Part shown: positions 23,210 through 34,253 of the stretch, one piece after another
Layout: the number at the start of each line of letters is the position of its first letter
Numbering within the stretch: the stretch's first letter is position 1
Assembly (NCBI GenBank): GCA_007133205.1
Contig: SLND01000099.1
Location: forward strand, 1-39,065
DNA: 39,065 nucleotides
Source of the DNA: Natronospiraceae bacterium
GTDB lineage: Bacteria; Pseudomonadota; Gammaproteobacteria; Natronospirales; Natronospiraceae
Direction of reading: 5' to 3'
The notes under the pieces: model-generated
What the model was told of the DNA's origin: nothing
What the model saw: only the letters and a program-made list of their open reading frames with translations
The model's database searches: none
Translations under genes and position numbers: made by a program

Positions 23210-23734
23210 TCAGTCCATGCCGTTTTCCTGACGCTCTTCCAGCCGCGCCAGTACCTCGTCGGTAATATCCACCCGATTGGCGGCATAGAAAACGCCTTCA
23301 CCAACCACCAGATCAAGGCCATTCTCTCTGGAGTAGGCCTGCACTTCACTCATGATCAGGCGCTGCAAGACGTTGAGTGCTTCATTACGACGTGCGTTCA
23401 GGTCTTCTGAATAATCACTCTGCTTGCGCTGCAACAGGCGCTGGAGATCACGGATTTCCGCCTCCATGTCCCGGCGCTCATCTTCACTCATGATTTCTTC
23501 GTCGCGGCTGAGCTCCTCCTGCAACTCCTGCAGACGTTCACGCTCCTCCATCATCTCGCGCTGCATGGGCGCGAATTCACGCTGCAGATCCTCGAAGGCT
23601 GCCTGGGCCTGGGGGGCTTCCTCCATCAGCTTTGCCACGTTCACAAACCCAATCTGCAGATCTTCTGCCTTGGCCATGGCGCTGGACAGGGCCAGGGCCA
23701 ACCCGATTCCAGCAATGACAACTACTCTTTTCAT
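23210..23734 (-). CDS. skp: Periplasmic chaperone Skp/OmpH
   Basis: Periplasmic trimeric holdase for unfolded outer-membrane proteins. The 174 residues begin with a Sec signal (MKRVVVIAGIGLALALSSAMAKA, cut before EDLQIG). IGFVNVAKLMEEAPQAQAA is the OmpH start, and a long charged coiled coil (about 45-125) forms the tentacles. The end, VVGEGVFYAANRVDITDEVLARL, closes the body domain. ATG 23734 follows AGGA; a longer frame adds twelve residues that would spoil the signal peptide. bamA is 39 bp upstream and lpxD 8 bp downstream. Confidence 0.95.
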   Translation of the reverse strand: MKRVVVIAGIGLALALSSAMAKAEDLQIGFVNVAKLMEEAPQAQAAFEDLQREFAPMQREMMEERERLQELQEELSRDEEIMSEDERRDMEAEIRDLQRLLQRKQSDYSEDLNARRNEALNVLQRLIMSEVQAYSRENGLDLVVGEGVFYAANRVDITDEVLARLEERQENGMD

Positions 23735-23773
23735 CTTCGTTCCTACCTCCGGCATGCATGCCATCGTCATGAT

Positions 23774-26305
23774 TCAGAAACCGGTTCCCAGTTCAAACTG
23801 GAAACGGTCAATTCGGTTGCGGTCCACGTCTTCGTCGGTTTCATTGAGCGGCTCCGCAATACTGAAGCGCAGGATCCCCATGGGTGTCATCCAGGTGGCC
23901 GCAAGCCCGATCGAATACCGGGCATCACCCAGATCCACGGCACTTCGGTCTTCCCACACGTTCCCGGCGTCGATAAAGAAGGCGAACTGGTAATCGGCCG
24001 GTCCCCGGGCATCCTCATCCCGCATGAAATCCGGAATTATAAACTCATTCTGCACGTTGGCACGTATTGTACCGCCCCAGGGGTTCTCCCGGTTGTCGAC
24101 CGGACCCAGGCTGGCGGACCGGAAGCCACGCACCGACCGGGATCCCCCGGCAAAGACATGCCGGAAGGGCGGGACCAGCTCCGTATCCCCATAGGTGTCC
24201 TGATAATCGAACCGGGCGTTCAGCCGATAGGTCCAGTCATTGCCGAGCGGCAGAAAACTGGTCTGCTCCAGGCGTACGCCCCAGTACTCCAGATCGAAAC
24301 CCGGAACCGCATAATCCAGGCTCAACTGCCGACGCTGACCCCGGGTTGCGAAAATCGCGCGGTTTCGGGTATCGCGCACCCATCCCAGATTCAGCTCCAG
24401 ATTCCGCATCTGGGACCCGCGATTTCGATCCGGATCGTCCAGATCGGGATCACTCTCGACCTCGAACTGATCCCCGTGATTGCGAATGAACTCACGCATT
24501 TCGGCCGAGGAACTGGCCGTACTCACGAAGTCACTCTGACGCCCACTGACACCCCACTGAACGGAATCGAATTCGGAGATCGGATACCCCCAGCGAACGC
24601 TGCCACCAAACATGGTCAGATCCGCGGGAGACTGGTCCCGCGCAAAGAACTCCTGGCTTTCATAGAAACCGGAAACCGACCGGGATACGCCATCCAGGTT
24701 GGTATAGGGCTCCTGGTGTTCGAAATTGTAGCGTTCCCCAAGGCGGTTACGCTCCAGTTGTACCTGGCCACGCTGCCCCCGCCCGAACAGATTCGAGTGA
24801 CGAATGGAGGTATTGACAATAAAGCCCTGCAGGTCGCCATATCCGGCACCGATATTGAACTCACCGAACTGGCGCTCCTGGATGTTCACGTCCAGGTCAA
24901 CCTCATCATCCGAACCCGGAACACGGCGCTCCTGAATATCCACATGTTGCACGAAAGGCTGTTGCCGCAACCGTGTCCGTGACCGATCGACCAGATTATT
25001 CTGAAGCGGTGCGCGTTCAAGCTGCCGCAGCTCACGACGATAAGTTTCGTCGTCTGTATCTTCAGTGCCGCGAATATTGATGTTGCGCACATAAATCCGC
25101 TGACCGGGATCAACGAAAAAGGTCCACGACACTTCTCGTTCCTCCCGGTGCAGATCCGGCACCGGCGTCACTTCCGCATGGGCATAGCCGGCCGCACCCA
25201 GACGGCGCTCGATGAAGTCCGCACTGTTCTCGGCTGCCGACATGGAATAGGTGTCGCCGGCCTGAACCTGGATCAGACTCTGCAACTCTTCTTCCGGAAC
25301 GGGATAATCGCCAATCATTTCCACGCCCCGGACTGTATAAACCTCCCCTTCGCTCACGTTCACGGTCAGATAGACATCACGTCGATCCTCGGAAATCGAG
25401 ACCTGCACGCCTTCCAGCTGAAAATCCGCGTAGCCACGATCCATGTAGAAGCTCTGGATCTGCTCCAGGTCCCCGCTCAGGCGTTCCCGGGAATACTGGT
25501 CACTCGGGCCGATGAGTGTCCGCCAGCTCCGTTCCTGCAATTCCATCTGCCCCATCAGCCGGTCGTTATCGTAGTTTTCATTGCCCACGAAATTGATCTT
25601 GCGAAGATAGGCTGGCCGGCCTTCCTTGATCTCCAGGGTGACCGCGACCTGGTTGTCCTCGAGCTCTTCCACGATGGCGTTCACCGAGACGCCATAACGC
25701 CCCTGTCCGTAATACACCTGGAAGAGTTCGACTTCCATCTGGTCGAGAAGCTGCTTGTTGAGCACCCGGCCTTCTGCGATACCCACTTCGCGCATGGCGC
25801 CATAGAGGTCCTCATCATCAATCTGGCGATTCCCGGTGATATCCAGGAAGGCAATGGTTGGACGCTCTTCCACTTCGACGACGAGAACACCCTGATCTTC
25901 CTTCATCCGGATGTCATCGAAGAAACCTGTCTGGTAAAGGGTCCGCATCGCCGAGCGGATCTGGGCCGGACCCACCAGATCACCCACATCCAGCGGGAGA
26001 TAATCCAGGACGGTCCCTTCATCGATTCGCTGGAGCCCGCGTATGCGGATATCCGCGATCTGGAAACCCTCACCCGGCGCCACCGGGACGTCGGCCTCTT
26101 GCTCGGGATCCACACCGGGCATGGGCTCCGGCTCCTCCGGCGGTGGAGCTTCCGGAGGTGGTTCATCCGGCGGAGGCTGCTGCGGCTGAGGTTGTTGTGG
26201 CTGCGGTTGCTGCTGAGGCTGCGGTTGGGGTTGTGCTTCAGCGAATGCACTCAAAAACAAGGCAGCAAGGCCAAACACGACAGGCAGTTGAAAACCGGCT
26301 CTCAA
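23774..26305 (-). CDS. bamA: Outer membrane protein assembly factor BamA, with Pro/Gln-rich linker
   Basis: Core of the BAM complex, which inserts beta-barrel proteins into the outer membrane. The 843 residues have a signal peptide (1-24, AEA then Q), a Pro/Gln then Pro/Glu low-complexity linker (25-64), five POTRA domains from about residue 80 (FQIADIRIRGLQRIDEG), and a 16-strand barrel. The barrel shows the lid-loop motif VRGF in GGSRSVRGFRS and a C-terminal beta signal ending in Phe (FQFELGTGF). The L6 cysteine pair of E. coli is absent. I prefer the TTG start at 26305, since GAGAGG lies 6 nt upstream and it gives a compact signal peptide; a TTG at 26341 adds 12 residues but sits at the edge of a hairpin. 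It lies between rseP and skp, as usual. Confidence 0.95.
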   Translation of the reverse strand: MRAGFQLPVVFGLAALFLSAFAEAQPQPQPQQQPQPQQPQPQQPPPDEPPPEAPPPEEPEPMPGVDPEQEADVPVAPGEGFQIADIRIRGLQRIDEGTVLDYLPLDVGDLVGPAQIRSAMRTLYQTGFFDDIRMKEDQGVLVVEVEERPTIAFLDITGNRQIDDEDLYGAMREVGIAEGRVLNKQLLDQMEVELFQVYYGQGRYGVSVNAIVEELEDNQVAVTLEIKEGRPAYLRKINFVGNENYDNDRLMGQMELQERSWRTLIGPSDQYSRERLSGDLEQIQSFYMDRGYADFQLEGVQVSISEDRRDVYLTVNVSEGEVYTVRGVEMIGDYPVPEEELQSLIQVQAGDTYSMSAAENSADFIERRLGAAGYAHAEVTPVPDLHREEREVSWTFFVDPGQRIYVRNINIRGTEDTDDETYRRELRQLERAPLQNNLVDRSRTRLRQQPFVQHVDIQERRVPGSDDEVDLDVNIQERQFGEFNIGAGYGDLQGFIVNTSIRHSNLFGRGQRGQVQLERNRLGERYNFEHQEPYTNLDGVSRSVSGFYESQEFFARDQSPADLTMFGGSVRWGYPISEFDSVQWGVSGRQSDFVSTASSSAEMREFIRNHGDQFEVESDPDLDDPDRNRGSQMRNLELNLGWVRDTRNRAIFATRGQRRQLSLDYAVPGFDLEYWGVRLEQTSFLPLGNDWTYRLNARFDYQDTYGDTELVPPFRHVFAGGSRSVRGFRSASLGPVDNRENPWGGTIRANVQNEFIIPDFMRDEDARGPADYQFAFFIDAGNVWEDRSAVDLGDARYSIGLAATWMTPMGILRFSIAEPLNETDEDVDRNRIDRFQFELGTGF

Positions 26306-26368: not shown

Positions 26369-27736
26369 TCATCCAAATATTCGCAACAGATCGTTGAAGA
26401 TCGCGAAGGTGATCAGGGCCGCGATCATCAGCAATCCAATCTGCTGACCGGCCACGAGCACTCGCTCGGAAACCGGCTTCCCGGTCACCCCTTCGGCAGC
26501 AAGGTAGAGCAGGTGTCCGCCATCCAGGACGGGGATCGGCAGCAGGTTGATGATCCCCAGGCTGATACTCACAATCGCCAGAAAACTGAGAAAAGATACC
26601 AGTCCTGAGCTTACGGTGACACCCGCATACTGGGCGATATTGATCGGCCCGCTCAGATTCTGGAGGGAAACATCGCCCATGATCATGCGTCCGAGCATCC
26701 GGACGGTCAGGCTGGACATTTCCCAGGTGTTGGCAATCCCGCGCCCGAGCGCGCTCACTGGGCCGTAGCGCTCATCCGCACGCATGGACTCGATCAGCTC
26801 TTCGGAAACCCGCGGCGCTGCCCCGATCTGACCCTGCGCACCCTCCTCCCCGTCTACCCGCTCGGGAGTCACCCGCAGCTCGCGGGTTTCACCGTCACGT
26901 TCCACGACCAGCAGCAACTCTTCCCCGGGCCGTGCTGAAACCCGGTCGCGGAAGGACTGCCAGGTGGTCACGGACTCGCCGTTCACGCTGCGGACCAGAT
27001 CCCCGGTCTCCAGGCCAGCACGCTGCGCCGGACCATCGTCGCTGAGTTCACCGATCTCCGGGGCCAACACCGCAAACCAGGGCCGAAACCCGAGCCCCTC
27101 CATCAGGCGCCCGGGTTCCGTAAGCTCGCGCCGATCCTCTGCCGGAACGCGCAGTTCCAGTTCCTGCCTGATCGCACCGCGCTGGACTTCCACCCGGACC
27201 GATTCATTCGCCAGCATCGCATCAAGCATTTCAATGCTCGCCGCCCGCCAGGTACTCGCACCACGCTCGTTGATGCGCAGAATTTCGTCATCCGCCTCGA
27301 TGCCGGCCTCTGCGGCGGGCGAATCGGGGACCACTTCACCAATTACCGGTTTCACGCCGGGCACACCGGACATGAAGAGCACCCAGTAGGCCAGGATTGC
27401 GAACAGGAAATTGAATGCTGGGCCGGCAAGCACCACCGTGGTTCGGCGCGCAATCGACTGGCGGTTGAAGGCGCGATGGCGCTCCGATTCGGGAACCGAA
27501 TCCTCGCGCTCGTCAAGCATCTGCACGTAGCCCCCGAGCGGAACCATCCCGATGCGGTATTCAATATCATCGGTCCCCATGCGCCGTGACCACAGGGGGC
27601 GACCAAAGCCGATCGAGAAACGCAATACCCGGATGCCACACAGGCGAGCGGCGAGATAGTGACCGAATTCATGCACGGTCACCAGGATTCCGATCGCCAG
27701 AATGAAGCCGAATACGGCCATCAGGAAGGTACTCAT
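26369..27736 (-). CDS. rseP: Site-2 intramembrane zinc metalloprotease RseP
   Basis: Cleaves the membrane segment of anti-sigma factor RseA after DegS, releasing sigma-E in the envelope stress response; it also clears signal peptides. The 455 residues (E. coli 450) carry the zinc motif HEFGH at 22-26 in the first transmembrane helix, [12 protein letters not shown], two periplasmic PDZ domains (about 120-190 and 210-300), and the third zinc ligand in [16 protein letters not shown] near residue 400, then a last helix. ATG 27736 overlaps the dxr stop by ATGA, with GGGAGA upstream. It precedes bamA, a sigma-E target in E. coli. Confidence 0.97.
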
Positions 27737-32949: not shown

Positions 32950-33990
32950 TCAGCCTTCGGAAGTGCTTGCGGTCTTTTTCTTCGCGGCCTTCTTCTTCGC
33001 AGTCTTCTTGGCTGCCTTCTTCTTGGTAGCCTTCTTTGCGGCCGCCTTCTTCTTGCTGGCCTTCTTCGAAGCGGTGGCGGCCTCGCTCTCGCTGCCGGAC
33101 TCTGCTGACGACTCCGCTGCGGCGGATTCCTCGCCACCTTCCGCCGCTTCCTTTTCCGCGGCCACCTTCTTCTTGGCTGCCTTCTTCTTCGCCGCCTTCT
33201 TCTGGGTGGCCTTCTTGGCCGTCTTCTTCGTCGCCTGGCGCGGCTTGCCGTCCTCGTCCAGCTCGACAAACTCGTCGGAAGCCTCGGTTTCCGAAATATC
33301 CGGCATGGAGGCCTTGCCGTCGATAATGGCATCGGCCACACCGCGGGCGTAGAGCTTGATCGCCCGAATGGCATCGTCGTTACCCGGAATCACGTAATCG
33401 ATTCCGTCGGGGTCGTTGTTGGTATCCACCACGCCGATCACCGGAATGCCCAGCTTGCGGGCTTCCTTGACGGCAATGTTCTCGAAGCCGACGTCTACCA
33501 CGAAAAGGGCATCCGGCAATCCGTTCATGTCCTTGATGCCGCCCAGGTCGCGCTGCAGCTTGTTCATTTCGCGCCGCAGCTGGGTGACTTCCTTCTTGCC
33601 AAGCACGTTGAAGGTGCCATCCTGTTCCTGCTCTTCGAGGTCCTTGAGCCGGCGGATGGAGCCACGCACCGTATTGAAGTTGGTGAGCATGCCACCGAGC
33701 CAGCGATAGGCCACATGAGGCATACCGCAGCGACGGGCTTCCTCGGCGATGGTTTCCCGGGCCGCCCGCTTGGTGCCGACAAAAAGAATCCGTCCGCCAT
33801 CCGCGGCGAGCTTGCCGGCATAGTTCAGGGCGTCCTGATACAGGGGCAGGGTCTTTTCGAGGTTGATGATGTGAATCTTGCTGCGCTGACCAAAGATGAA
33901 CTTGGCCATTTTCGGGTTCCAGAAGCGGGTTTGGTGCCCGAAATGCACCCCCGCTTCCAGCATGTCGCGCATGGATACGCTGGAAGACAT
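32950..33990 (-). CDS. rpsB: Ribosomal protein S2 with a Lys/Ala-rich C-terminal tail
   Basis: 30S subunit protein that binds last in assembly and bridges to S1 in gammaproteobacteria. Residues 1-240 are ordinary S2: [65 protein letters not shown]. The protein is 346 residues against 241 in E. coli. The surplus has three parts: a basic block at 254-276 (KK/AA repeats), an acidic Ser/Glu/Ala linker at 277-308, and a second basic block at 309-340, resembling histone H1 or AlgP-type KAAKK repeats. The frame is unbroken, so this is a real fusion-like extension. ATG 33990 has CGGAGAT upstream and is preceded by a long structured leader. tsf is 60 bp downstream. Confidence 0.97.
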
Positions 33991-34128
33991 AGTTGATCTC
34001 CGTTTTGTACGGGTTGGGCCTCCATACGCCCCATGCGACAACCCCGGCCGGACAGGCTCCTGGGAGACCATCCTGAACCGGGGCACCCGGCCGCATGTGC
34101 CGGCGTATGTGTGGTTTGCTAATTGAAG
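33991..34128 (-). promoter_or_regulatory. Structured 5' leader of rpsB-tsf mRNA (candidate S2 autoregulatory element)
   Basis: About 138 nt from the predicted transcription start to the rpsB ATG. Nested inverted repeats build one long imperfect hairpin spanning 34023-34109: CATACGCC 34023-34030 with GGCGTATG 34102-34109; CATGCG 34032-34037 with CGCATG 34092-34097; CCCCGG 34042-34047 with CCGGGG 34078-34083; CAGG 34053-34056 with CCTG 34072-34075. All four pairs are perfect and properly nested. E. coli rpsB also has a long leader through which S2 represses its own operon, so a similar role here is likely but inferred. Confidence 0.6.
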
Positions 34129-34134
34129 TCGGGC

Positions 34135-34163
34135 TTTATACCATAAGCGGGATTTGTACACAA
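34135..34163 (-). promoter_or_regulatory. Sigma-70 promoter of rpsB-tsf
   Basis: On the minus strand the -35 box TTGTGT (34158-34163) and the -10 box TATAAA (34135-34140, 5/6) are separated by exactly 17 bp. The predicted start is near 34128. It points at rpsB, the first gene of the leftward string, where a strong ribosomal-protein promoter is expected. Confidence 0.65.
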
Positions 34164-34253
34164 CGCGGGGCGCCCCTGAGAAGGCGCTCCACCGGGGTTT
34201 TCGGGAACCGTCCCGGGCCCGGTGGGCCTCGCCCCGCCCCACCCGGAATGGCC
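34164..34253. promoter_or_regulatory. GC-rich palindromic region upstream of map
   Basis: Between the rpsB promoter and the map start lie a perfect 10-bp palindrome GGGGCGCCCC (34167-34176) and an inverted repeat CCACCGG 34189-34195 with CCGGTGG 34219-34225. They could fold in the map leader RNA. I see no convincing plus-strand promoter for map here. Confidence 0.35.

Follow-up and report, generated by a model that had tools for sequence, protein, structure and literature searches.

A 56-residue proline- and glutamine-rich linker ahead of POTRA1 in BamA of a Natronospiraceae bacterium, most likely a lineage-specific add-on

In Escherichia coli BamA (NC_000913 b0177; PDB 9hg5, 5d0o), the first POTRA domain begins about three residues past the signal peptide, and no linker lies between the two. 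A stretch of 39,065 nucleotides from a Natronospiraceae bacterium (contig SLND01000099.1 of assembly GCA_007133205.1), hereafter referred to as the window, encodes a BamA protein in which 56 residues, composed largely of proline, glutamine and acidic residues, are placed at this very position. The preliminary description of the locus had set the protein against E. coli BamA, in which POTRA1 directly follows the signal peptide, a point which our comparison with strain K-12 confirmed, and had proposed an extended arm that might reach peptidoglycan, periplasmic chaperones or the inner membrane and whose coding DNA might change in length by slippage. The questions raised are what this tail is, how it came about, and whether a specific function has to be assumed for it.

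The protein belongs fully to the BamA family. The gene occupies positions 23774–26305 of the minus strand and encodes 843 residues from a TTG start. Pfam recognizes POTRA domains in five stretches (E = 6.7e-58) followed by Omp85 (E = 3.6e-56), and this order of five POTRA domains and a barrel is given alike by Pfam, the structural model and Foldseek. POTRA1 to POTRA5 span residues 81–478 (24872–26065, minus strand), as delimited by Pfam, the alignment to E. coli BamA and the model, and the Omp85 beta-barrel spans residues 479–843 (23777–24871, minus strand; Pfam PF01103, Foldseek to E. coli BamA). The translation contains SVRGF, in which R726 and G727 are invariant across the alignments; VRGF/Y is what we take to be the loop 6 motif of the barrel in BamA and the Omp85 family. 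The top Foldseek match of the model is E. coli BamA within the BAM–SurA complex (9hg5, E = 7.4e-74). The neighbourhood is likewise that of E. coli, with the gene order rseP–bamA–skp–lpxD: a gene for an rseP-type M50 protease (26369–27736, minus strand) lies upstream and skp (OmpH; 23210–23770, minus strand) downstream. The same genome encodes a second Omp85-family protein (G000:C160:580-1416), presumably TamA-like.

The TTG start at 26305 is credible, because a GAGG-type Shine-Dalgarno sequence 6–7 nt ahead of TTG is common to the window gene and three same-family relatives (L007, L008 and L009), and because the bamA frame of the window offers no start inside or after the linker that would retain the signal peptide. 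The sole in-frame ATG within the linker is codon 62, and initiation there would remove the signal peptide altogether. In bamA of some other members of the order, e.g., L015 and L024, TTG is again the likely start.

The signal peptide comprises residues 1–24 (MRAGFQ...AFAEA; 26234–26305, minus strand), as judged by inspection of the sequence and by an AlphaFold helix at residues 9–19, and reads MRAGFQLPVVFGLAALFLSAFAEA. AxA-type sites at residues 22–24 and 20–22, seen by inspection, suggest cleavage, which is likely to occur at AEA|Q or AFA|E. The linker follows as residues 25–80 (26066–26233) and contains 22 proline, 13 glutamine and 11 acidic residues, with neither lysine nor arginine. Its core, residues 25–64 (26114–26233, minus strand), consists of a QP-type half and then a PPPE-type half; here the preliminary description was exact in its coordinates, proline, glutamine and glutamate making up 36 of the 40 residues (the exceptions are D47, A53, M62 and G64), and the stretch outside POTRA extends further, to residue 80. 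This acidic remainder, residues 65–80 (VDPEQEADVPVAPGEG; 26066–26113, minus strand), has no counterpart in the aligned relatives. Three Pro-Pro-Pro motifs (residues 44–46, 49–51 and 54–56; 26138–26176, minus strand), each followed by D or E, account for three of the four such motifs that occur among the 7552 residues of 17 window ORFs. The composition is a long way from that expected by chance: the richest 40-residue stretch of the linker holds 31 proline plus glutamine residues, compared with at most 11 in the 16 other window ORFs examined.

An extended or disordered arm, as had been proposed, agrees with the AlphaFold2 prediction. The pLDDT is below 50 for residues 1–77, where the signal helix is the sole secondary structure, although low values from a 29-sequence alignment with few linker rows are weak evidence of disorder; from residue 81 on, block means are mostly above 80, and POTRA1–5 and the barrel are ordinary. 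Adaptation to salt was considered as a reason for the acidity of the linker and was discarded. Mature BamA without the linker contains 17.4% D+E, against 13.7% in E. coli, and a same-family relative lacking the linker reaches 16.3%, so halophile acidity does not explain the linker.

At the DNA level, the proposed slippage-driven variation in length found no support. Weak tandem repeats are present at 26136–26237, and these do not exceed what the amino-acid pattern dictates. The tract contains no repeated 12-mer pair and three repeated 9-mer pairs, versus means of 5.8 and 21 in 2000 back-translations with the codon usage of the window, and its repetitiveness is typical under 5000 synonymous shuffles of its own codons. 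The low repetitiveness arises because rare codons are used unusually often: CAA makes up 6/13 in the linker versus 13% elsewhere (binomial p = 0.004), and CCA plus CCT 7/22 versus 12% elsewhere (p = 0.012). Recent slippage would make the DNA more repetitive than the protein demands; since the reverse is seen, and repeats in the DNA of the tract are no purer than its protein pattern needs, the tract bears no signature of slippage at present. Duplication at an earlier time may be considered as its origin. A source for the linker in some other gene of the organism was rejected, as the linker, used as query against the genome, recovered only itself and no second copy. A search of the genome for the P(E/Q) pattern gave five sites in three places, namely a PEPEPE tract inside a long ORF (contig C127), a PEPEPE-type site at the end of an ORF that we take to be FimV-like (C164), and a site where the longest ORF uses another frame of the strand (C108). 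Elsewhere in the window, the ORF for ribosomal protein S2 (32950–34242, minus strand) encodes a Lys/Ala-rich C-terminal tail of about 120 residues past the Pfam S2 domain, with DNA repeats at 32969–33236.

How unusual is the linker among relatives? The genus is represented by this genome alone (n = 1). Across the rest of the family (three genomes), the gap from the signal peptide to POTRA1 never exceeds 14 residues. Matches of BamA length were obtained for 16 of the 19 genomes of the order, and all 15 BamA proteins other than that of the window have 0–14 residues at this site. The comparison of N-termini called for by the preliminary description thus showed relatives that are mostly without a linker. 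At the class level, 369 genomes were searched with the linker plus POTRA1 and 344 matched; among the roughly 150 matches listed, only G135 aligns well into the proline-rich part, and the N-termini were read for 20 listed matches with room upstream. When a single measure of length, counted from where the hydrophobic core ends up to POTRA1, was applied to 174 loci (155 distinct N-termini, the window and E. coli included, second Omp85 genes and pattern loci omitted), the window linker, at 56 residues, was the longest and the median was 5, in a sample weighted towards the best matches to the window protein and by a measure that is crude. The next-longest linkers have 37 (L107), 31 (L175), 31 (L095), 29 (L114) and 24 (L161) residues, and the eight N-termini with at least 20 residues have unrelated compositions. 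L107 (JAJFKF010000024.1, Gammaproteobacteria bacterium OFTM314) and L095 (JANXOV010000041.1) resemble the window in having a Q/P- or V/P-rich linker at the identical site, but their linkers are shorter, differ in sequence, and are isolated cases. POTRA1 directly after the signal peptide is a typical and not a defining feature of BamA, from which the window protein departs. Also within the class, BamA proteins of G135 and G346, which have a genus number in common, carry Pro/Ser-rich linkers of PSASPPPS type (L062 and L063), and an 18-nt tandem unit, with two copies in one of them and a single copy in the other, records an actual change of length at the linker site.

Beyond the class, 70 genomes of the phylum were surveyed, 53 of them from other classes, and the N-termini of 31 of these 53 were read, many picked for long open frames. 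Linkers of at least about 23 residues were recognized by eye in four of the 31: G401 (~42, Pro/Ala/Gln), G414 (~44, basic), G436 (~23–25) and G398 (~24, Pro/Gln). The long linker of G414 (L238) is basic and His/Lys/Gly-rich, a charge opposite to that of the window. In the order of G401, all 80 genomes matched, and the best 30 of the 80 were read, taking in all 20 members of its family f195 (G401 contributes L228/L248), which we assume to be sphingomonad-like Alphaproteobacteria. Every one of these 20 BamA proteins has a proline-containing linker, of 12–52 residues (median 21.5) with 6–35% proline; the linkers were delimited by eye, starting one residue past the AxA-type site, and each was checked verbatim. 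By the cruder hydropathy measure, which mis-sets some linkers (L250 and L255 score 2 though their sequences contain longer ones), ten BamA proteins from other families of the order, among the same best 30 of 80, have 2–24 residues. The f195 linkers are like that of the window in being proline-containing, variable in length and placed at the identical site; they are unlike it in being Ala/Pro-rich and poorer in glutamine, with at most 35% proline and a net charge mostly between −3 and +2 (lowest −7), and we infer an independent origin. Proline-rich tails ahead of POTRA1 thus seem to arise independently and to vary in length. Because such linkers recur in separate lineages, the stretch before POTRA1 can be viewed as permissive, with lineages filling it independently of one another. 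Cyanobacterial Omp85 proteins may have a proline-rich N-terminal region, a point on which our reading does not draw. The excerpt of PMC3652856 lends this no support, the word appearing there only in a reference on Tic40, and no description of proline-rich N-terminal extensions of BamA or Omp85 was found in the open-licence literature, including the excerpts of PMC3652856 and PMC10267391.

According to the excerpts of PMC11366764 and PMC11970506, E. coli SurA docks by beta-augmentation on residues 75–80 of POTRA1, with the help of R64. In the alignment of the window protein to E. coli, R64 corresponds to R121, and the edge strand VRVLRD corresponds to IRMKED at residues 132–137 (25895–25912, minus strand), so that SurA docking at POTRA1 looks intact; this genome, like those of the three same-family relatives, has genes for SurA and BamB. 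Since the docking elements are kept and both genes are present, the linker is an addition and not a replacement.

Several specific roles for the tail can be weighed against this background. The best-specified rival to a passive spacer is an element of translation, which we consider unlikely: the Pro-Pro-Pro motifs at residues 44–56 would slow the ribosome as the signal peptide exits the tunnel and thereby aid Sec targeting, the tail itself being idle. The concentration of these motifs in the linker and its enrichment in rare codons are in keeping with a pause, as is the enrichment of E. coli polyproline motifs near starts and downstream of transmembrane helices described in the excerpt of PMC5811046. 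On the other hand, Pro-Pro-Pro is present in just 2 of the 20 convergent f195 linkers, 56 residues are more than a pause requires, and relatives export BamA without such a linker. Recruitment of chaperones, in which the tail would capture Skp or the prolyl isomerase SurA and so raise their local concentration at BAM, is distinctly unlikely. SurA does dock on POTRA1 in E. coli and is encoded in this genome, and skp adjoins bamA, but the three same-family relatives have SurA and no such linker, and a chaperone would find hardly any aromatic or hydrophobic residue to hold in the tail. Of the earlier proposal, SurA as a target of the linker is possible, while the known docking strand is a separate element that appears undisturbed. 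Contact with peptidoglycan, by which the arm would sense or tether the wall, is very unlikely. In the excerpt of PMC9242858, E. coli BAM binds peptidoglycan and is inhibited by its mature form, and the binders are POTRA3–5, BamB, BamC and BamE, not POTRA1–2; as these two domains do not bind and the linker has 11 acidic and no basic residues, the peptidoglycan target suggested earlier is disfavoured.

Proline-rich stretches withstand most proteases. This counts against a propeptide, i.e., removal of the tail by a periplasmic protease so that mature BamA starts near residue 80, as does the absence of a recognisable processing site in the linker by eye; a disordered tail would be open to protease and the sequence holds nothing that forbids removal, and we regard such processing as highly improbable. 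An artefact of assembly or annotation (repeat collapse, frameshift or wrong start) might be suspected in a single source that is a draft assembly (194 contigs, 84% complete). It is hardly credible, given that the longest exact repeat in the linker core is 11 nt and easily assembled, that the frame is open throughout, and that the start is conserved in relatives. As to reach, polyproline II rises by about 0.31 nm per residue, and 56 residues fully extended in this form would measure about 17 nm, although a flexible chain is much shorter on average. The wall lies 14–16 nm from the inner membrane in the excerpt of PMC13067283. Contact with the inner membrane, as had been suggested, is therefore possible on geometric grounds only. 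Domain II of TonB and TolA is comparable to the linker in being periplasmic, proline-rich, PPII-prone and of low complexity (PMC12204202 and PMC7098700, in excerpt), but TonB and TolA retain a helix in the inner membrane and transmit force across the periplasm, which they span, whereas the window BamA has a signal peptide that looks cleavable and shows no sign of an anchor in the inner membrane. Pfam gives only POTRA, POTRA_1 and Omp85 families in the protein, and thus no TonB/TolA C-terminal domain. A rod in which a retained signal peptide or an inner-membrane partner lets BamA bridge the periplasm through a TonB-like polyproline II stretch, coupling the insertion of outer membrane proteins to the inner membrane, is extremely unlikely.

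We favour, at somewhat better than even likelihood, the reading that the linker occupies a permissive site and acts there as a flexible, acidic spacer with a passive role. In a single lineage of the Natronospira family, an ordinary BamA would have acquired a disordered, polyproline-II-prone, acidic N-terminal tail of 56 residues; signal peptidase would cut at AEA|Q, and the tail would then extend from POTRA1 into the periplasm and serve passively, as an entropic spacer or bristle. No specific partner would be needed, the tail would be tolerated because the BamA N-terminus is permissive ahead of the first POTRA1 strand, and the site would have been filled repeatedly in evolution owing to weak constraint on length and composition. 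Both vary there, as seen in the 12–52 residues of family f195 and the 18-nt unit of G135 and G346, which argues for such weak constraint. Against a passive spacer, 90% proline, glutamine and glutamate over 40 residues with mixed synonymous codons could be the mark of prolonged selection for this residue pattern, something that a tail evolving in a wholly neutral way would not require. The linker is most likely a lineage-specific add-on and not a new machine, and most likely has no conserved partner.

BamA is essential, and its N-terminus belongs to the domain on which SurA docks. The linker described here is unusual in its length and in its proline and glutamine content, yet it is one of several proline-rich tails at the site before POTRA1, where disordered tails rich in proline, 12 to 56 residues long, have been acquired by separate lineages. 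Their recurrence is a caution against assigning a function to any single tail, and these natural linker variants allow testing how far the periplasmic end of BAM can be altered.
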